Of a stretch of DNA of 64,000 nt, positions 5,974-32,944 are shown one piece after another. This DNA comes from Terriglobia bacterium (GTDB lineage Bacteria; Acidobacteriota; Terriglobia; Terriglobales; Acidobacteriaceae). The stretch covers positions 124,001-188,000 of the forward strand of contig JAIQGK010000002.1 in assembly GCA_020072645.1 (NCBI GenBank). The letters run 5' to 3'. The translations under genes were made by a program, and so were the position numbers. The first letter of the stretch is position 1; every line of letters begins with the position of its first letter. The notes under the pieces are model-generated. The model did not search any database and had not been told where the DNA came from. It saw only the letters and a program-made list of their open reading frames with translations.

Positions 5974-6879
5974 ATGGCCACTCCGAGTATTCAAATCCAA
6001 ATCAGTGAACCGGAATACAAGCTGCTGCAGACGCTGGTATATCAGGAATGCGGCATGTACTTTGATGAAAGGCGGGCCCATTTTTTGCAGGACCGCCTGC
6101 AACGCAGACTGAAGATCTGCGGGCTGGACACGTTTTACGCTTACTATCGCCTGCTCACCAGCTATCAGGGCAAAGCGGAAATGAGCGCGCTGGTGGAAAA
6201 CCTCACGGTGAATGAAACCAGCTTCTTTCGCAACAAACCGCAACTTGAATTGTTCCAAAAAAATGTCCTGGAAGAACTCTTGAAACGGAAGCAGGAACGG
6301 CGCGACTGGAGCCTGCGCCTGTGGTGCGCGGGATGTTCCACGGGACAAGAGCCATACACGCTGGCGATGCAGGTGTGCGACGCGCTGGCCTACTACTATC
6401 TGCGCAATCCGCTGCCATTTGAAATGCCCAGCCCCAAGCCACTGATTCCCCCACCGTGGAAGGTGGAGATACTGGCTTCCGACATTAACTACACGGTATT
6501 GCGCACCGCGCAAGAAGGTGTTTATTCAGAAAGCCAAATGGAATCCGTGGACTACGCGTACCGTCTGCGCTATTTCGACAAGCTGGGCGACCGATACGCA
6601 GTAAAGCGAGGATTGAAAGACCTGGTCCATTTTGACTTCCACAATTTGAAAACGGAATTCCTCCCCCAGCGCAATGACGTAATCTTCTGCCGCAACGTGA
6701 TGATCTACTTTGATGAAGCGGAGCAGAAGCGCCTGGTGGAAAAGCTGTATCGCTGTTTGAACGCTGAAGGCTATCTTTTTATCGGGCATGCGGAAAGCCT
6801 TTTTGGATTGTCAGACAAATACAAGATGATCCACCAGAACAACGGCACGGCGTACCAGCGCATTGAGGTGGCAGGGTGA
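5974..6879 (+). CDS. cheR: Chemoreceptor glutamate methyltransferase CheR
   Basis: A 301-residue SAM-dependent methyltransferase that methylates receptor glutamates for adaptation. An N-terminal all-helical domain (about 10-85) contains the family signature NLTVNETSFFR. The Rossmann domain has the SAM-binding LRLWCAGCSTGQEPYTLAM and the later IFCRNVMIYF motif. Length is normal for CheR without TPR extensions. Its stop overlaps the start of cheA in GTGA, which indicates translational coupling. Confidence 0.96.
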   Translation: MATPSIQIQISEPEYKLLQTLVYQECGMYFDERRAHFLQDRLQRRLKICGLDTFYAYYRLLTSYQGKAEMSALVENLTVNETSFFRNKPQLELFQKNVLEELLKRKQERRDWSLRLWCAGCSTGQEPYTLAMQVCDALAYYYLRNPLPFEMPSPKPLIPPPWKVEILASDINYTVLRTAQEGVYSESQMESVDYAYRLRYFDKLGDRYAVKRGLKDLVHFDFHNLKTEFLPQRNDVIFCRNVMIYFDEAEQKRLVEKLYRCLNAEGYLFIGHAESLFGLSDKYKMIHQNNGTAYQRIEVAG

Positions 6880-9002
6880 ACTTCTTCTCTGACGATCACG
6901 CGGCCGAGCTTCGCGAACTGTTCTTTGAGAGCGCAACAGAACTGTTGCAGACACTCAACGAAGAGGGGCTGGAGCTGGAGAAGCGTCCGGAAGATCAAGA
7001 AGTGTTGCGCCAGGTTCGACGCACAGTCCATACCCTGAAGGGAGACTCAGCGGCCTGTGGCTACACCGAGCTGAGCGAGTTGGCGCATGCGCTGGAAGAT
7101 GTTTTGCGTCCGGATATTGCCGCTGTGAGCAAGTCAGCTTTAGCGGAAGTGGTCCTGATTGCCGCCGATACGTTCAGTTCCATGCTCTCCGCGTATCGAG
7201 GCAGCCTGCAACCGCCGGCAGGAGAAGAGCTGAAAGAACAGATCGTTTCGCTTACCAGAAAGCCGGCCAATACAGTGCGTTACAAGCTGCAGGCTCGCTT
7301 CGTCTGGAGTGAATACGAGCAGATGGTGGTGGCGGATGCGCTGGGTCGCGGAGAAACGGTTTATAACGTGGCGTTCTCCATTGAACCGCAATGCCCGATG
7401 CGCGGCGCCGCAATGCAGTTGATCCGCAACGTGTTACAGGACTGTGGAAAGCTGCTGGCCGTGGCGCCCGATCAGAGCACGCTCAGTAACGATCTGGACG
7501 TGGTGGAAGCGGCCATTGCCAGCGACAACTCCGAGGAGTGGATCGCAAAAAAGTGCCGCATTCCGTCTGTAGTTGCGGAAGTCCTGGTCCAAAAAGCCGG
7601 ACAGACGCAGGAGCCTGCGGATGACGTGCTGGATATTGTGAGGCACGTAACCGCTCCGCAGGAAGATGAAACCGAGACCAGCATTCGGGCTGAAGAAACG
7701 CCGGCGATGACGGCTGCTGCCCGTGAAGTTGCAACACAAAGAGCTGAGAGCGCCAATTCGCAAATAGCAAATGACACGCAGCCCGCAAGTTTCGCCAGCA
7801 TGTCTGAAACGCTTCTCCGCGTGGACGCCGAGAAGATTGATTCCGTGCTCAATCTGGTGGGCGAACTGATCATCGCCAAGAGCATGCTGCACCAGGCAAT
7901 CAACGAATTTGAGAAGCGTCATCCCAAAGATCCATTGAATATGCGGTTCTCTGACGCCATGGCATTCCAGGCACGGATCATGAATGACCTGCAGAAATCT
8001 GTAATGAAGATCCGCATGGTGCCGGTGGAACATCTATTCCGCAGGTTTCCCCGCGTGGTGCGAGATGTAGCGAAGTCCTGCGGCAAGGAAGTAAATCTGG
8101 TGGTGACGGGCCAGGACACCGATCTGGACAAGAGCATTCTAGACATGCTGGCGGAGCCGTTGGCGCACCTGGTACGCAATGCCGTGGACCACGGGATTGA
8201 GTCTCCGGCAGAGCGCATCAACGATGGAAAACCGGCGCAAGGCACGGTAACGCTTGACGCTTATCACCAGGGCAATGAGATTGTGATTGAGGTGACCGAC
8301 GACGGCCGGGGCATCGACCGCGAGAAGCTGATAGCAAAAGCAGTGGAGCGCGGAGTGATCAAACAGGGCGACGCAGCGGTGCTGGGCGAAATAGAGATCA
8401 ATAACCTGATTTTCCATCCAGGCTTAAGCACCGCGCAGGAAGTTACGTCTATTTCCGGCCGTGGCGTAGGCATGGACGTGGTGAAGACGGTGCTGGAAAA
8501 ACTAAAAGGCACTGTGAGCATTCGCACAACCGCCGGCAAAGGAACAACGTTCTTCCTGAAGGTGCCGCTGACACTGGCAATCATCAAGGCTTTGCTCTTC
8601 CGCGTGGGCGACCGGTTATACGCGGTACCGCTGGCTTCAGTTGTGGAGATTACGCGGACGACGCAAGGAGCACTGCATCGTGTGGACCAGCACGAGGTAA
8701 TGCAATTGCGCAATGAGGTGCTTGCGCTGCTGCATCTGCACCGTCTGGAAAAAGAGCCGGCGGAAACGGGAAAGATGTTTGTGGTAGTGATTTCCACGGG
8801 CGAACGCAAGTTCGGCCTGGTGGTGGACCATTTGGTAGGCGAAGAAGAATTGGTCATCAAGGCCATGGACGATCATTTGGTGGCCACGGACCTGGTCAGC
8901 GGCGCTTCCATCCTGGGCGATGGAACGGTGGTTCTGATCCTGAATCTCTCAAGTGTAGTTGCAAAGCTCGGCAAGTTACAGATGGTGGGGGCCACAGCAT
9001 GA
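6876..9002 (+). CDS. cheA: Chemotaxis histidine kinase CheA
   Basis: A 708-residue kinase with a GTG start overlapping cheR by 4 bp. The P1 Hpt domain carries the phospho-site VHTLKGDSAACG, with His52. After a variable linker come dimerisation and ATPase domains with the N-box LVRNAVDHGIESP, the G1 box VTDDGRGID and the G2 region ISGRGVGMDVV. The C-terminal CheW-like domain (from about residue 570) docks CheW and the receptor. A P2-like region at 130-190 may bind the response regulators. All catalytic boxes are present. It should phosphorylate both the CheB and CheY-like proteins encoded next. Confidence 0.96.
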   Translation: MNFFSDDHAAELRELFFESATELLQTLNEEGLELEKRPEDQEVLRQVRRTVHTLKGDSAACGYTELSELAHALEDVLRPDIAAVSKSALAEVVLIAADTFSSMLSAYRGSLQPPAGEELKEQIVSLTRKPANTVRYKLQARFVWSEYEQMVVADALGRGETVYNVAFSIEPQCPMRGAAMQLIRNVLQDCGKLLAVAPDQSTLSNDLDVVEAAIASDNSEEWIAKKCRIPSVVAEVLVQKAGQTQEPADDVLDIVRHVTAPQEDETETSIRAEETPAMTAAAREVATQRAESANSQIANDTQPASFASMSETLLRVDAEKIDSVLNLVGELIIAKSMLHQAINEFEKRHPKDPLNMRFSDAMAFQARIMNDLQKSVMKIRMVPVEHLFRRFPRVVRDVAKSCGKEVNLVVTGQDTDLDKSILDMLAEPLAHLVRNAVDHGIESPAERINDGKPAQGTVTLDAYHQGNEIVIEVTDDGRGIDREKLIAKAVERGVIKQGDAAVLGEIEINNLIFHPGLSTAQEVTSISGRGVGMDVVKTVLEKLKGTVSIRTTAGKGTTFFLKVPLTLAIIKALLFRVGDRLYAVPLASVVEITRTTQGALHRVDQHEVMQLRNEVLALLHLHRLEKEPAETGKMFVVVISTGERKFGLVVDHLVGEEELVIKAMDDHLVATDLVSGASILGDGTVVLILNLSSVVAKLGKLQMVGATA

Positions 9003-28038: not shown

Positions 28039-28205
28039 GGATGATTTTCAATAGAGAGCTGTTGCTTTAAGTTTTGGTTTTTTATCGCCTAGAACACTGC
28101 GATATTTGCCTTCCCCGCCGGTAAATCCCACCTTCGCGCCAGGTAAGCCTGAGTCCGATTGCGCCATGTGTTACCCTTTCAGTCCGATTGTGGTCAACAC
28201 AACGA

Positions 28206-29684
28206 ATGCCCGATCACTCTTCAAGTGCGCCGTCCGGCCGACTCCTTCGCGCCGCACAATATCTACGAATGAGCACGGAACACCAGCAGTACTCGATTGA
28301 GAATCAATCCGCCGCGATTGCGCTCTACGCGGCGGCACATAACATCGGCATCGTGCGCTCTTTCAGTGATGAGGGGAAGAGCGGGACGACTATTAAAGGG
28401 CGTAAGGGATTGCAGGAATTGCTCCGGGTGGTTCAGGCTGGAGCCTCCGACTTCGATGTGATTCTCGTTTATGACATCAGCCGATGGGGCCGGTTCCCCG
28501 ATGCGGATGAAGCTGCACATTACGAATACATCTGCAAACGAGCTGGAATTGAAATCCGCTATTGCGCCGAACAATTCGAGAATGACAACAGCACGACGTC
28601 CAATCTTCTTAAGGCGCTCAAGCGCACGATGGCCGGAGAATTCAGCCGCGAGTTATCGGCCAAGGTGTTCGCGGGACAGTGCCGACTGGCTTCCACGGGT
28701 GTATGGCTCGGCGGACTTCCTCCTTTTGGCATGGTGAGACAGCTTGTTGACAGAAATGGCAAACCAAAGCGAATACTCAAATCGGGCGAGCGTAAGAGCA
28801 TTCAGACAGATCGTGTAGTGTTGAAGCCCGGTCGGAAGAAAGAAGTTGATTTAGTCCGGTTGATCTTTAATCTGTTTACTGAAAAAGGAATGTGCCAAGG
28901 GGCCATTCAAAAGTACCTCAATCAACGTGGGCTTTGGCGCCGGGGCCGCCCCTGGGGCTGGTGCGCTTTGCGGTGCTTGCTGCGCAACCCCGTATATAAG
29001 GGATCGTCAGCTTTTGGTAAGTTCGACTGCAAGAAGGGGCAAAAACGGACGCTGACACCATCCGATAAGTGGATCGTTCATGACGGTGCTTTCCCCGCGA
29101 TAATCTCTGCTAAGCAATTTGCGCGAGCTCAGGAGCTGATTGCTGCGCGGAAACGACGACTCGAAAATGCGGACATGCTGGAATCATTGAAGCGTCTGTG
29201 GAAACGAAAAGGCACCCTGAATTCGACACTAGTAAACCGCACCAAGGGTGTTCCAACAACCTGGACGTTTACGAGGCACTTTGGCTCTCTCAGCCATGCC
29301 TACGATTTGATTGGGTATTCACACCGGGACGTCACATATGCAAGAGTCAGGCCCATCGCCAATACTGCACGGGACAACCTATGTGAAGAGATTTCTTACC
29401 GTGTACGCGCAGTTGGTGGGACGGCAGAACGCACCCGCGCACCGGGAGTTCTATCGATAAACGGAATGCTCACTGCACAAGTGAAGGTCACAGTGGGGCT
29501 AACGTGGCGAGAGGGGCATCCTGCCTGGTGGCTCCCAATTACAATGCTTCCCGATGTTGATGTCCTGATTCTCGCCCGCGTGGAACCCAGAGAGTACTCA
29601 ATCCTGGACGGAAGTATGTCTTTTACGCAAGGGCGATTTCTCCCTCATTTTACCATTGCATTCCTTTCGCCAGTGACGCTATAA
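28206..29684 (+). pseudogene. Large serine recombinase, 3' end disrupted by transposon
   Basis: The native frame begins at ATG 28206 (TTG 28188 is also possible) and runs to 29608. The resolvase domain has the catalytic Ser in YLRMSTEHQQYS and YDISRWGRF, followed by the recombinase domain and a Zn-ribbon-less middle (about 190-330). Native coding ends at SILD; the last ~25 residues up to the stop at 29684 come from the inserted transposon's left end. The missing tail (YYVVPRLAKVNGKFLVRA) lies in frame at 32547 once the 2,930-bp insert and one target copy are removed. The truncated protein may still be made; activity is doubtful. Confidence 0.85.
29609..29630 (+). repeat. Left terminal inverted repeat of the transposon
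   Basis: Starts CGGAAGTATG and ends TTTACGCAA. It matches the reverse complement of 32517-32538 except at positions 8, 11 and 13. The target copy ATCCTGGA is immediately outside at 29601-29608. Confidence 0.92.
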
Positions 29685-29761
29685 GCAGAATCGGGCGTGC
29701 TCAGTGCTTTCGACACCGAACACGCCCCTGACCAAAATCCACCTTCCTTGAAAGGCGAATC

Positions 29762-29962
29762 ATGGCTATTGCCGATTTTACCAGCCAAGAACGTAGCAGC
29801 ATCCACCGGATGCTCACCCTTCTAAACAGTTCTCTCCAGTCCGTTGTTCTCAAGCTGGAGCAATTATCCAAAAACGAAGTCTTTACTCCGCAATATCTGG
29901 AGGGACTGAGAAAACGATCACGCGAGATTGAAGCGGAATTGAAGTCCATCTTCAAATTCTGA
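29762..29962 (+). CDS. Small helical protein, transposon passenger
   Basis: 66 residues beginning MAIADFTSQERSSIHRMLTL, predicted as two amphipathic helices. The family is not recognised. GAAAGG lies 6 bases upstream of the ATG. A terminator follows at 29985. It sits at the left end of the IS1595 element, in the opposite direction to the transposase. Confidence 0.6.
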   Translation: MAIADFTSQERSSIHRMLTLLNSSLQSVVLKLEQLSKNEVFTPQYLEGLRKRSREIEAELKSIFKF

Positions 29963-29984
29963 ACTAGAAAATTAACCCTTACCG

Positions 29985-30010
29985 ACCCGCCAGAGATGGC
30001 GGGTTTATTA
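29985..30010 (+). terminator. Intrinsic terminator after the 66-aa gene
   Basis: ACCCGCCA (29985-29992) pairs perfectly with TGGCGGGT (29997-30004) around GAGA, followed by TTATTATT. Confidence 0.85.
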
Positions 30011-30048
30011 TTGCTGCTAATCTGTTTTAGAAGAAAGTGAGCAAAATA

Positions 30049-30270
30049 ATGCAAATCAAGACAGGACAAATGGTGTTTCTTATTGGACACAGAGGAGCTG
30101 CCTCGAAAGACATCAACAGCGTTGTGCTGCAATTATCTGTCGCACTTACGCCAGAAGACGTTACTGCAAGCAAATCCGATTCTTTTATGCTGGCGATTCC
30201 TGCCGATTATGCAGAAAAAATAATTTCCAGCATTCGGTCTTCACTTGAAAACCTTCGTCAGTCCAAATGA
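30049..30270 (+). CDS. Small hypothetical protein, transposon passenger
   Basis: About 73 residues from ATG 30049 (GTG 30037 would add four). An AAAGTGAG stretch lies upstream. The sequence has alternating strands (MVFLIGHRG, VVLQLSVAL, DSFMLAIPA) then a C-terminal helix; it is not recognised. It follows the terminator of the 66-aa gene, so it may have its own promoter. Confidence 0.5.
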   Translation: MQIKTGQMVFLIGHRGAASKDINSVVLQLSVALTPEDVTASKSDSFMLAIPADYAEKIISSIRSSLENLRQSK

Positions 30271-30359
30271 AATCAATTTCGCGTAGCGATGAATGAATTA
30301 TTTCCATGCTTCATATTATAGATGGCATGGCAATAGGCTTTGCCTATGCGAGTAATTTT

Positions 30360-30521
30360 CTAATCTTTCGGCCAGCCTTCAGGCGGTTTCTTTTTGGTGA
30401 GAGATTTTTTGATATTTTCTTTCCAGTCGCCTTTGATCTTCAACACGTCTGGTTTAGGGCCAGACTTTTCTTTTGGCTTGCTGTCCATTGCTACCGATTT
30501 CGATTTTTTATTTTTATTCAT
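30360..30521 (-). CDS. Lys-rich small protein with KKPPEGWPK tail
   Basis: 53 residues from ATG 30521, or 42 from the in-frame ATG 30488. The core reads PDVLKIKGDWKENIKKSL and then TKKKPPEGWPKD before the stop. I recall similar short proteins (LKI.GDW...KKAL.KKKP..GWPK) in several bacteria, of unknown function. Its pattern conservation makes it a real gene despite its size. It lies in the transposon, downstream of the transposase operon and in the same direction. Confidence 0.65.
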   Translation of the reverse strand: MNKNKKSKSVAMDSKPKEKSGPKPDVLKIKGDWKENIKKSLTKKKPPEGWPKD

Positions 30522-30544
30522 TAGTTATGGCCCAAGATTCCGCT

Positions 30545-30937
30545 TTACACGATATTAAAAAATAAATCCTCTAACAGCATTTGCCGAACCCGCCAGAAAT
30601 CATGCTCGATTCCCTTAATCTTTAACCTGCATTTCCCCTCTTCATTGAGTGTCAGAGTTGCTTTTAGTTCTTCCTCTAAATTTCTCACAATGATAACTTT
30701 CCCACTAAGTTCTATCCAGACAGATTCATTAATGGATACTGGTGGAACTTTTCCAGGCAATATGCCTTCGAGGGTAACGATCAAACGATTTTTGTTTTCC
30801 TCTGAAAACGAAAGTTTGTAATCTCCCGATTTAATTAGCACAGTTCTCGCTTTAATGTCGTCCTTGATTTCCGCTTTTAACCGTTCAAAGGAATTAGCGG
30901 GAGAACACTGAGAACGTTCGGTAACCCAATCTGTCAT
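30545..30937 (-). CDS. Hypothetical protein coupled to the transposase
   Basis: 130 residues, not recognised. Hydrophilic, strand-rich in the middle (YKLSFSEENKNRLIVTLEG, VWIELSGKVIIV) with helical ends. Its start overlaps the transposase stop by 4 bp (ATGA), so it is translated from the same mRNA. IS1595-family elements of some subgroups carry passenger genes, which fits. Confidence 0.65.
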   Translation of the reverse strand: MTDWVTERSQCSPANSFERLKAEIKDDIKARTVLIKSGDYKLSFSEENKNRLIVTLEGILPGKVPPVSINESVWIELSGKVIIVRNLEEELKATLTLNEEGKCRLKIKGIEHDFWRVRQMLLEDLFFNIV

Positions 30938-31899
30938 TGGATACCGCCTTTGGGATTGCGATACATCAAACGCTTTCCCTCTGCTGATTGTATCGCTAAC
31001 ACGGTGCGCTCTCCGTCATTCATCTTCCGATTGTTCCACAGAAAATCATACTGCCAGAGATAGCGATGCAAATACTCGCGGCTTACATTGTGGTAAATGC
31101 CGATGATTCCCCGCTTCACTAGAGCATGGCTGCTTTCTGCTGTATTCGTGTGAGCGATTCCACGGGCATACTCTTTGGTTGCATGGCAAACGGTGCTGTG
31201 ACCCGCATACTCTGGCCCGATGCGCCTGTAAGCTGAAAACTCATCTGTCAAAAGATGTGCGCTCCGGTCGATTTCCTCGCGGATTGCGTTTTCGATTGTT
31301 TCAGTGGTCACGTCCGCAACTATGCGACGGCGAAGCTGGCCATCTCGTTCCACGGCACAGAACACCGGAGTCTTACTGGTGCCCCGTCCGCGCTTGCTGG
31401 TGCCCTTGTAGCGCGGCTTACGAGGGCCAATGTAAGTTTCGTCACATTCAACAAGGCCAGTCAATTTGGGGCTGTCTCCGTCTGGTGCCATGGCAAACCG
31501 AATACGATTCATTAGGAACAATGCTGACTTGTAGCTAATCTGGCATTGCCGTTTGATTTCCAGAGCAGATACGCCTTTCTTGGACGTTGACGCTCTCCAG
31601 AACGCATAGCACCAGTGGCGCAATTCAATCCTTGATTCCTCGTACACTGTGCCGATGCGGACGGTGTACTGCTGCTTGCAATCGCGACAACGCCAGAGAT
31701 ACCGTGTGCTTCGTTCGCCTGTTTTCGCGTCAATCATTTTGTATACATTCACGCTTCCACAGTGAACGCAGGCAGGACCATTGCCCCAGCGTTGCTTTTC
31801 CAGAAATTCAACAGCGGCCAATTCGTTACTGCAAGCCAGTGGAATTTCCGCCACCGTATAAGAGCCTGAAAGTTGATGTCTGCGCTCTGACTTCTTCAT
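30934..31899 (-). CDS. IS1595-family (ISXO2-like) transposase
   Basis: 321 residues from ATG 31899. The N-terminal zinc ribbon has CVHCG...CRDCKQQY. The DDE core has ECDETYIG (first Asp), LLTDEFSAYRRIG (second Asp) and the His-Asn-Glu box around HTNTAESSHALVKRG, followed by YLHRYLWQYDFLWNNRK. A perfect sigma-70-like promoter lies so close that transcription would begin at about the ATG, so a leaderless mRNA is likely. The longer frame from 31935 would overlap the promoter and is rejected. Confidence 0.92.
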   Translation of the reverse strand: MKKSERRHQLSGSYTVAEIPLACSNELAAVEFLEKQRWGNGPACVHCGSVNVYKMIDAKTGERSTRYLWRCRDCKQQYTVRIGTVYEESRIELRHWCYAFWRASTSKKGVSALEIKRQCQISYKSALFLMNRIRFAMAPDGDSPKLTGLVECDETYIGPRKPRYKGTSKRGRGTSKTPVFCAVERDGQLRRRIVADVTTETIENAIREEIDRSAHLLTDEFSAYRRIGPEYAGHSTVCHATKEYARGIAHTNTAESSHALVKRGIIGIYHNVSREYLHRYLWQYDFLWNNRKMNDGERTVLAIQSAEGKRLMYRNPKGGIQ

Positions 31900-31906
31900 A
31901 GTTAAC

Positions 31907-31935
31907 AATATAATACTTGGCGCAAGTTGTGTCAA
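31907..31935 (-). promoter_or_regulatory. Consensus sigma-70-like promoter of the transposase
   Basis: On the minus strand TTGACA (31935-31930) and TATATT (31912-31907) are separated by exactly 17 bp. The -10 box ends 7 bases before the transposase ATG, which predicts a leaderless transcript. Confidence 0.75.
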
Positions 31936-32039
31936 GTAAAAAATTAGTTAGATGAAAAAATATGTTCTTTGGTCACTCAGTAAAAGGCTTTGAGAAATGA
32001 GAGGAATGATAACCACGATGGTGGTAAACTATTTTCGTA

Positions 32040-32208
32040 CGAGATTGGAAATTTCCATGCTACTAGGGATAGCCCTTGACCATCACGCTTGCCGTGATTG
32101 AGGGCGATAACACAAAGGCCCAATTCGCTTGAGTCTTGGCGGACGGCGAATCAGGCCATGGTGAGCAACTGTATTGCTTTGGGCTGGTCTTAATCGGCCA
32201 GCCTCTTT
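32040..32208 (+). ncRNA. Putative structured non-coding RNA upstream of tRNA-like gene
   Basis: No protein frame fits. Nested pairings are visible: GCCCT/AGGGC enclosing ATCACG-CTTGC-CGTGAT (about 32069-32105), GGCC–ATTCGC with GCGAAT–GGCC (about 32118-32156), and a palindrome TGGAAATTTCCA (about 32046-32057). A terminator-like GGCTGG/CCAGCC hairpin (32182-32203) is followed by TCTTT. It does not match RNase P, SRP, 6S or tmRNA motifs I know. It ends 4 nt before the tRNA. The function is unknown. Confidence 0.5.
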
Positions 32209-32211
32209 AAT

Positions 32212-32304
32212 GCGGTAGTGGCGAAATCAGCAGACGCGCCTGATTTGGAATCAGGTGGGGTTCCCTTAGAAGGCTCCGTGCGGGTGCAAATCCCGTCTAC
32301 CGCA
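32212..32304 (+). tRNA. Leucine-type class II tRNA with UGG (Pro) anticodon
   Basis: Acceptor GCGGTAG/CTACCGC with discriminator A, D-stem GCG/CGC with a TGGCG...GCAGACGCG body as in bacterial tRNA-Leu, anticodon stem CCTGA/TCAGG with loop TTTGGAA, and a long variable arm. The anticodon at 32246-32248 is TGG, which reads proline CCA. Oddities are a T-loop TGCAAAT with G at position 55, AG instead of GG in the D-loop, and no encoded CCA (TCA). It may be a working mistranslating tRNA, a tRNA mimic or a decayed copy. Confidence 0.75.
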
Positions 32305-32516
32305 TCAAACTTTTTAAGTTGCACATTTCAAAGAACTTTCAGGTTTAAGTCTCAACTCAAGTTTCACTCAATTCTTACTCACGCCATAATTAATTTGATA
32401 ACTTTCTGTTGGGTTTGTCAACAACTAAACCAGTTGTATAAACAACTGAATCACGTTTAACCCCGTCATTTCCCGCGATCTCCCGCCACATACCGCCATC
32501 ACGTAAAATCAGTGGG

Positions 32517-32538
32517 TTGCGTAAACGCCACACTTCCG
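32517..32538 (-). repeat. Right terminal inverted repeat of the transposon
   Basis: Read on the minus strand it starts CGGAAGTGTGG and ends TTTACGCAA. The outer target copy ATCCTGGA is at 32539-32546. Confidence 0.92.
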
Positions 32539-32546
32539 ATCCTGGA

Positions 32547-32847
32547 TTACTATGTCGTGCCGCGCTTGGCAAAAGTTAACGGTAAATTCCTAGTCAGGGC
32601 AAGCAAGAACGTGGCCTTTTTAGACATTCATCGCGTTAAAAATCTCAGCGGCTTGATAACCTCACTGCGCTGCCGCTGCATTTCGGAGGTCTATGAGCAG
32701 ACTCTACCTGGGCGCAAAAAGACGCAGCATCAATTTCGTCGCACACCACTCGCACTTACACCAAATTCTCGCACTGCCTCAACAGGTGGCGTGGACGGCA
32801 GATCATCTGGCAAGGTTCAGAAGTATCTTCGGGCGTCTGTTTCGTGA
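32547..32847 (+). pseudogene. Severed C-terminal part of the serine recombinase
   Basis: Joined to 29608, the frame continues ILD-YYVVPRLAKVNGKFLVRA and ...LDIHRVKNLSGLI. This is the tail I associate with large serine recombinases of the DYYLLP type. Past about 32690 the frame becomes Arg/Ser-rich and overlaps a better gene, so the native end may have been nearer 32700. A diverged copy of the same tail is at 57209-57390. Confidence 0.75.
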
Positions 32848-32944
32848 CGAGAACTTCGTCACCCTTCTGCGGGCAGAGTCGTTGGCGATGATCCCGGAGC
32901 ATCTAGCGAGTCTATTCGACGCTGATGGGGGTGAGCGGAAATGA
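32693..32944 (+). CDS. Small hypothetical protein
   Basis: 83 residues starting MSRLYLGAKRRSINFVAHHS. GGAGG lies 5 bases before the ATG. Two helices are likely. Its stop overlaps the start of the next gene (ATGA), so the two are coupled. I do not recognise it. It follows the recombinase in its original operon. Confidence 0.6.
   Translation: MSRLYLGAKRRSINFVAHHSHLHQILALPQQVAWTADHLARFRSIFGRLFRDENFVTLLRAESLAMIPEHLASLFDADGGERK

Follow-up and report, generated by a model that had tools for sequence, protein, structure and literature searches.

A lineage of IS1595-family transposons carries a leucine-type tRNA with a proline anticodon, associated with a CCA codon in the transposase gene

The 64,000-nucleotide stretch of a Terriglobia bacterium genome analysed here (contig JAIQGK010000002.1), which we call the window, contains a complete IS1595-family transposon of 2,930 bp (29609-32538) that carries a tRNA gene of its own. 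This tRNA has the body of a leucine tRNA and a proline anticodon, it is conserved in related elements, and the codon used at one conserved proline of the transposase is associated with it. On the basis of such comparisons we give close to an even chance to the idea that the element tRNA is leucylated and inserts leucine at a designated proline codon of its own transposase, most likely as a self-limiting brake.

The sequence-only reading, an earlier description of this DNA, had claimed an IS1595-type transposon with precise bounds and a tRNA within them, and this was right. The terminal ends, CGGAAGTATGTCTTTTACGCAA and CGGAAGTGTGGCGTTTACGCAA, are 22 bp long and identical at 19 of 22 positions, just as it had stated, and the exact 8-bp target-site duplication (TSD) said to bound the 2,930-bp unit, ATCCTGGA, flanks it on both sides. 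When the flanks are joined over a single ATCCTGGA, one continuous 573-aa serine recombinase frame results, which aligns through the junction with six uninterrupted homologues at 41-52% identity. The comparison with empty sites that had been proposed is thus answered in favour of the insertion by intact homologues, while an empty site of the same locus was not found. A second copy in the same genome (transposase 82% identical, 3,253 bp) has ends matching at 21 of 22 positions and the TSD TTTGAAAT, and many related elements have CGGAAGTATGTACTT-type ends with 8/8 TSDs, so that related transposases do end at the same kind of repeat, as had been left to check; for part of the related loci no ends were found, several of those lying at contig ends. 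The same genome holds five further, more distant IS1595 copies, with transposase identities of 35-40%. Two divergent copies in one genome and the continuous joined frame may be regarded as signs of active transposition, though only indirect ones.

That the unit contains one IS1595-type transposase is borne out by matches to Pfam (DDE_Tnp_IS1595, PF12762, E 2e-34; zinc ribbon, PF12760, E 1.9e-11) and to NCBIfam NF033547 (E 1.3e-53). An ISXO2-like DDE transposase with an N-terminal zinc ribbon, 8-bp target duplications and inverted ends are shared with IS1595-family transposons, some of which are known to carry passenger genes; what is different here is a Leu-type tRNA with a Pro or Ala anticodon and an associated transposase codon. 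In the predicted transposase structure (mean predicted local distance difference test score, pLDDT, 82.5) Pro20, the residue discussed below, falls within an N-terminal helix, ahead of the zinc ribbon. No solved structure of an IS1595 relative was found, and Foldseek matches were mostly to integrase/DDE-transposase folds with low TM-scores.

The tRNA of the window element was called Pro(UGG) by ARAGORN and scored 52.9 bits against the Rfam tRNA family, and a class II tRNA had indeed been claimed for the unit before; the correction to be made is that its body is leucine-type. The cloverleaf belongs to class II: its D stem has 3 bp and its D loop 11 nt, the variable arm is long, and A15-U48 and A73 are present, as in tRNA-Leu, but a leucine anticodon is absent from the window tRNA, which has UGG, and from all element tRNAs (0/40), and it is therefore Leu-type rather than an ordinary tRNA-Leu. 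Neither does it have the class I body and C1-G72 of tRNA-Pro, being class II with G1-C72; the tRNA-Pro of the host have C1-G72. The host possesses tRNA-Pro with UGG, CGG and GGG, and thus the element tRNA fills no gap.

In related elements we found 40 class II tRNAs, 34 with UGG, one with GGG, one with AGG and four with UGC, which means a proline anticodon in 36/40 and an alanine anticodon in 4/40 (the anticodon loop of locus L068 is not 7 nt long, ARAGORN leaves it open, two alignments read it as TTG and as TGG, and it was counted as UGG by judgement). A73 is found in 38/40, A15-U48 in 38/40, the 11-nt D loop in 37/40 and G1-C72 in 31/40. This set leaves out an ordinary tRNA-Leu(CAG) of L067 (2761-2844, 79.3 bits), which is outside the element, the tRNA-Val of L034, matches of at most 50 bits, the tRNA of L066 (class I, UGG), those of L013, L219 and L225 (altered anticodon arm) and short tRNA-like genes. 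The helices of 21 element tRNAs are paired in 99.2% of cells, with 135 compensatory cells, a level reached by 0/500 shuffles, and slid controls gave 40-46% paired. Under a covariance model built from these 21 tRNAs, the five tRNA-Leu of the host reach 71.5-82 bits, compared to 41-47 bits for three tRNA-Pro, 31.8-41.4 for three tRNA-Ser and 44.3 for tRNA-Tyr; a fourth tRNA-Ser, located in the window, reaches 22.5 bits. When identity is computed without the variable arm, 30 of 38 element tRNAs come closest to host tRNA-Leu, 6 to tRNA-Pro and 2 to tRNA-Ser; the anticodon is part of this comparison and tips it towards Pro. At the tertiary pair 18-55, 31 tRNAs have G-U, five A-G and the four UGC tRNAs G-C. 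The elbow change from G18-U55 to A18 and G55 was seen in the window tRNA, L020, L038, L129 and L224, and L078 has A19-U56.

Related transposases were found in 15/398 genomes of the family at E<=1e-90 and in 5/396 genomes of the phylum sample at E<=1e-80, and an order-level profile search at E<=1e-85 gave 33/387 genomes, many of these matches being more distant relatives. A scan of genome contigs gave 50 loci and two scans of viral contigs 7 and 28, partly on the same contigs. Elements bearing a tRNA occur in at least five phyla, namely Acidobacteriota, Gemmatimonadota, Planctomycetota, Pseudomonadota and Myxococcota. The assigned tRNA sits between the ends in 30/30 delimited elements, a set which takes in the class I tRNA of L066 and the L225 tRNA-like gene with the altered anticodon arm. 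The terms "passenger" and "unusual cargo", used for the tRNA in the sequence-only reading, understate a gene that recurs in a multi-phylum lineage and whose anticodon is associated with a transposase codon. Of the 33 delimited elements in the clade that shares the N-terminal Pro motif, 24 carry a tRNA and nine do not (among the nine, L071 has weak ends and L035 a 7/8 TSD with an N); a search of nine relatives with filters off found no tRNA, the best score being 13.6 bits (E 0.5). In a 52-row tree the UGG label requires 11 changes, four of them forced by well-supported branches, and the tRNA-less rows are scattered, some of those so labelled being cut by contig ends. Relative to the transposase (n=38), the tRNA lies upstream on the same strand in 12 elements, upstream on the opposite strand in 11, downstream on the opposite strand in 13 and downstream on the same strand in two. 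As both place and direction vary, a trans-acting product is favoured, and a cis-regulatory arrangement was rejected. No close relatives were found on plasmids (45 records, all below 60% identity, at most 41.4% among the 20 matches listed) or on phages (two records, at most 31.5% identity), and searches around genomes of other phyla gave no result.

The codon of Pro20 is CCA in 30 of the 31 elements with a UGG tRNA, and in 18/18 when one row is taken per lineage of less than 70% identity. The seven other columns in which Pro occupies 60% of rows or more have CCA in 39/162 cases (p 6e-15 versus Pro20), and of the 1954 Pro codons in flanking open frames of 200 codons or longer, 272 are CCA (13.9%). 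By column, the UGG elements have CCA in 1/29 (column 58), 4/24 (130), 16/19 (178), 0/15 (188), 1/31 (210), 1/25 (275) and 16/19 (481), which is to say that four of the seven columns hold almost no CCA, one is mixed and two favour it. Where no tRNA was detected in a relative, Pro20 is encoded by CCA in 6/12 (p 9e-4 versus UGG elements), and the residue itself is kept as Pro in 48/48 clade members scored, including the tRNA-less ones. L059, with its GGG tRNA, has CCT at the Pro20 site and CCA at columns 61 and 210. Judging from the counts in UGG, tRNA-less and GGG elements, the codon at Pro20 and the element tRNA are thus associated. The conserved codons next to Pro20 differ in the third position, and a nucleotide motif is therefore unlikely. 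Column 178 has CCA in 16/19 UGG elements versus 2/7 tRNA-less ones (p 0.014), and columns 58, 61, 188, 210 and 275, picked after looking, in 3/116 versus 8/40 (p 9e-4). In the 53-aa companion protein described below, the first Pro of GPKPD is CCA in 13/23 UGG elements versus 0/7 others, one of them L059, a post hoc observation because six Pro columns were inspected and this one stood out most. In the UGC lineage, column 141 is GCA in 4/4, versus GCG in 4/4 at columns 34, 150, 165 and 357. The C-terminal CCA of column 481 looked as if it replaced an ancestral Leu, but it was not used in the argument for Leu, as tRNA-less elements also have CCA in this column and Ser TCA is found in many outgroups; profiling of the residues that outgroups have at CCA positions pointed clearly to no amino acid.

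These codon counts leave out L069 (frame broken), L174 (N-terminus missing), L172 and L224 (both outside the clade; L224 has CCA at an N-terminal Pro, L172 no Pro there) and same-contig duplicates, e.g. L167 of L129, L165 of L128, L046-L052 and L055. L066 was counted as UGG, L043, L073 and L077 are without the site, and the tRNA-less set includes L034, L084 and L128, though these are not delimited.

According to the general view, bacterial leucyl-tRNA synthetase (LeuRS) does not recognize the anticodon, and the element tRNA should therefore carry leucine. For human tRNAs, one study indicates that LeuRS lets anticodon variants through, though less than the alanine and serine enzymes, AlaRS and SerRS (PMC11415595). 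We propose that this lineage of IS1595-family transposons may carry its own missense tRNA, Leu-type and reading Pro codons (Ala codons in the sister lineage), which would act in trans during translation. Its main target would be the designated CCA at the conserved Pro near the transposase N-terminus, with several other conserved prolines almost never encoded by CCA. At CCA the element tRNA would compete with the host tRNA-Pro(UGG), so that proline would be inserted when the host tRNA wins and leucine when the element tRNA wins. As CCA is near-fixed at one conserved Pro, decoding by the element tRNA seems to be wanted there, and its near-absence at some other prolines suggests that such decoding would be harmful at those places. 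Since Pro is kept at the site also without a tRNA, the Pro form is probably the working one, and the Leu form therefore probably lowers or alters activity. The brake would be dose-dependent, absent on entry to a new cell and stronger as copies and tRNA build up. We infer charging by LeuRS, leucine insertion, a brake and the direction of its effect. In a wider formulation, to which we give somewhat less than an even chance, the transposon lineage would have reassigned one codon privately and in part: the leucyl-tRNA that it encodes would read CCA (GCA in the sister lineage), CCA would mark ambiguous places while most true prolines use other codons, and a two-form transposase would provide a self-limiting or zygotically induced transposition switch.

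Several observations weigh against the proposed brake. With a low misreading rate, only a weak brake would result unless the Leu form is dominant, and six of the 40 element tRNAs have C1-G72, as in tRNA-Pro. L042 has a UGG tRNA yet CCT at Pro20; six of the 12 tRNA-less elements still have CCA there (6/9 when only delimited ones are taken, p 0.03), and so do L021 and L079, at contig ends, and L070, with a tRNA remnant, all three left out of the tRNA-less set. L059 has a second CCT, at column 291, and L166 (AGG, C33) shows no partition of Pro codons, with CCC at the site and CCA nowhere. CCA avoidance is column-dependent: all core conserved columns together have CCA in 23/143 versus 7/45 in tRNA-less elements (p 1), and among all Pro codons outside the site it makes up 26.8% (UGG) versus 27.6% (tRNA-less). 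The UGC sister lineage may use its tRNA in the same way as proposed for CCA at the GCA of column 141, but this site comes from four elements in two pairs, which are too few, and other Ala columns also hold some GCA. The Fisher p values given here ignore kinship, and the lineage count (18/18) is therefore the better guide.

It was plausible to consider an effect in the opposite direction, i.e. that the transposase becomes active only with Leu at the designated codon and the tRNA switches the enzyme on. On one hand, Pro20 falls within the predicted helix, tRNA-less outgroup transposases have Ile or Met at the site in several cases (Ala, Asp, Asn or Ser in others), and the matching site of the UGC lineage (GCA, column 141) is L, M, I or V in 30/31 outgroup rows. 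On the other hand, 0/12 tRNA-less clade members have Leu at the site, all having Pro, six of them with CCG, CCC or CCT; UGG elements carry Ala at column 141 in 29/31, and the N-terminal alignment to outgroups is uncertain, all of which leaves such a key-like function unlikely. The tRNA might also be prolylated and serve as a dedicated CCA reader, with transposase translation gated by tRNA supply, similarly to the bldA/UUA case. This idea would agree with Pro being kept at the site in all elements and with G35 and G36 of the UGG anticodon, the anticodon determinants of the proline enzyme, ProRS; given a Leu-type body kept over phylum-level divergence (G1-C72 31/40, A15-U48 38/40) and a host already equipped with tRNA-Pro UGG, CGG and GGG, we find it quite improbable.

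A similarly small chance is given to proteome-wide misreading of CCA for a general benefit, with the codon pattern of the transposase as a by-product: mistranslating tRNAs with a reported benefit do exist (tRNA-ProX, PMC10365949), but a by-product predicts avoidance of CCA at an essential Pro, not near-fixation at one (30/31). Were the anticodon to pair with the mRNA codon outside decoding, as a regulatory RNA, the 10-nt stretch complementary to the anticodon arm that precedes the tRNA in L053 and L069 would find a place; yet the constraint at the codon is limited to the in-frame triplet, flanking positions vary, and the cloverleaf and Leu-type features are maintained, which makes this function very unlikely. 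The chance hitch-hiking of a decaying host tRNA might come to mind in view of elements without a tRNA or with a remnant of it, and mobile elements in general often have tRNA genes nearby, but it is contradicted by the covariation, the retained Pro/Ala anticodon, the location inside the ends in 30/30 and the codon association, and we consider its probability negligible.

The bldA tRNA inserts the amino acid that the standard code prescribes, and its gene lies on the chromosome, in both of which it differs from the element tRNA. What the bldA/UUA switch of Streptomyces shares with the system proposed here is a tRNA whose codon is a switch in chosen genes (PMC12772374). The tRNA-ProX genes of Streptomyces and relatives (tRNA-ProA, -ProN and -ProT; PMC10365949) are likewise mistranslation genes with a body of one identity and an anticodon of another; these insert Pro at Ala, Asn or Thr codons and lie beside ProRSx, whereas the element tRNAs are Leu-type, read Pro or Ala codons and are encoded within a transposon, with a designated codon as their presumed target. 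With a Leu-type body and a Pro anticodon, the window tRNA thus lacks the tRNA-Pro body with a foreign anticodon that, with an adjoining ProRSx, characterizes tRNA-ProX. The allo-tRNAs of Acidobacteria and others (PMC7609411) also have non-cognate anticodons, but they are of Ser or Ala identity with 8/4 or 9/3 acceptor branches, while the element tRNAs have 7/5 Leu-type branches and intact cloverleaves, and the window tRNA has the 7/5 branch with A73. The yeast tRNA-Ser with a Pro anticodon (PMC6827378), a class II tRNA mistranslating Pro codons as well, is unlike the element tRNA a research construct and of Ser identity. Our literature search for transposon-borne miscoding tRNAs and for tRNA passengers of IS1595 elements found no description among the papers listed, with many subscription papers lying outside its coverage. 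The earlier statement that a tRNA passenger is undescribed stands in this respect, with the reservation that irregular allo-tRNAs linked to a transposon-related frame are mentioned for an acidobacterium, and an allo-tRNA pseudogene that overlaps such a frame was noted in Edaphobacter (PMC7609411).

Besides the transposase and the tRNA, all four small genes that had been claimed for the unit (66, 73, 53 and 130 aa) are present as open reading frames (ORFs; Table 1). To treat the 53-aa gene as unusual cargo proved mistaken: its basic product recurs in 31 of 39 delimited elements compared, directly downstream of the transposase in several and elsewhere within the element in others, and it is therefore a core component. 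No synthetase match was found among the ORFs of the window element in Pfam and NCBIfam. Promoter-like sites number two in the stretch scanned for them against 0.9 expected, and the start of the transposase may be leaderless. A leader is common to the window element and five other IS1595 copies of the same genome (L008, L009, L010, L012 and L013); across the six it consists of a variable hairpin, an invariant CCTGACCA-type block and GAAAGGCGAATCATGG, and the block together with GAAAGGCGAATCATGG could hide the ribosome-binding site and the start codon. The consensus fold of the leader has no covariation support, and no Rfam match at gathering score was found for the window copy, L009, L010, L012 and L013. 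The structured region claimed for the unit, situated ahead of the tRNA, folds somewhat better than shuffles (z -2.93; 2/200 shuffles as good), and it stays a candidate because only one sequence was folded.

Table 1. Coordinates of the features of the transposon and its insertion site in the window
Feature	Position	Strand	Basis or remark
Interrupted serine recombinase gene	28188-29608 + 32547-32848		Open frame once joined
TSD, left copy ATCCTGGA	29601..29608	none	TSD comparison; joined recombinase frame
Left terminal inverted repeat	29609..29630	+	19/22 versus right repeat; same repeat type in related elements
Conserved leader before first small ORF	29680..29767	+	Hairpin, then CCTGACCA..CACCTT..GAAAGGCGAATCATGG
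66-aa ORF	29762..29962	+	No family match in Pfam or NCBIfam
73-aa ORF	30049..30270	+	No match above curated cut-off (Pfam, NCBIfam)
53-aa companion protein	30360..30521	-	Motif GPKPDxLKIxGxW...KKSLxKKKPxxGWPK; in most clade elements
130-aa ORF overlapping transposase stop	30545..30937	-	No match above curated cut-off (Pfam, NCBIfam)
IS1595-family transposase, 321 aa from ATG	30934..31899	-	Pfam, NCBIfam, ORF list, predicted structure
Codon of alignment column 178, the second at which UGG-tRNA elements favour CCA	31483..31485	-	Codon counts
Designated CCA codon, Pro20 from ATG (I-P-L-A-C)	31840..31842	-	Within predicted N-terminal helix; alignment column 32
Promoter-like TTGACA-17-TATATT	31907..31935	-	11/12 match; ends seven bases before transposase ATG
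Structured RNA candidate ahead of tRNA	32060..32208	+	z -2.93, one sequence folded
Leu-type class II tRNA, Pro anticodon UGG (32246-32248)	32212..32304	+	A73; no encoded CCA
Right terminal inverted repeat	32517..32538	-	End comparison
TSD, right copy ATCCTGGA	32539..32546	none	TSD comparison

Other tRNA-like genes were seen in the course of this analysis. Near more distant IS1595 copies there are tRNA-like genes of 111-116 nt (L013 3388-3501, in the same genome at C12:448387-448500; L219 2437-2552; L225 8731-8841), whose anticodon arm, as judged by eye, is replaced or lengthened by a long hairpin. Second, short or D-arm-poor tRNA-likes with good acceptor and T arms lie beside the class II tRNA in L061 (4204-4275), L020 (4197-4262), L067 (~6470-6545), L216 (2970-3037), L174 (4921-4988) and L056 (6352-6423), and one stands alone in L070 (1237-1292). 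Directly before the tRNA of L053 and L069 there is CTTCCAAGGC, which is exactly complementary to that tRNA's anticodon arm, GCCTTGGAAG. At L009, a further IS1595 copy in the genome of the window has close to it a tRNA-like gene (7302-7375) that was called Ser(ACT) and whose anticodon stem is poor. Six predicted tRNA genes, including an odd 90-nt tRNA-Ile(TAT), form an array in L147 (G000 C35:16700-17300), as is typical of mobile tRNA arrays.

We know of no other mobile element that controls its own enzyme via a carried miscoding tRNA, and if the proposed reading is true, this would be the first such case. Class II tRNAs labelled "tRNA-Pro" or "tRNA-Ala" by anticodon, as ARAGORN did here, may be worth checking for their body. 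The lineage would moreover offer a natural case, bounded within about 3 kb, of co-evolution between codon choice and a foreign tRNA, in which selective codon reassignment would be directly testable.

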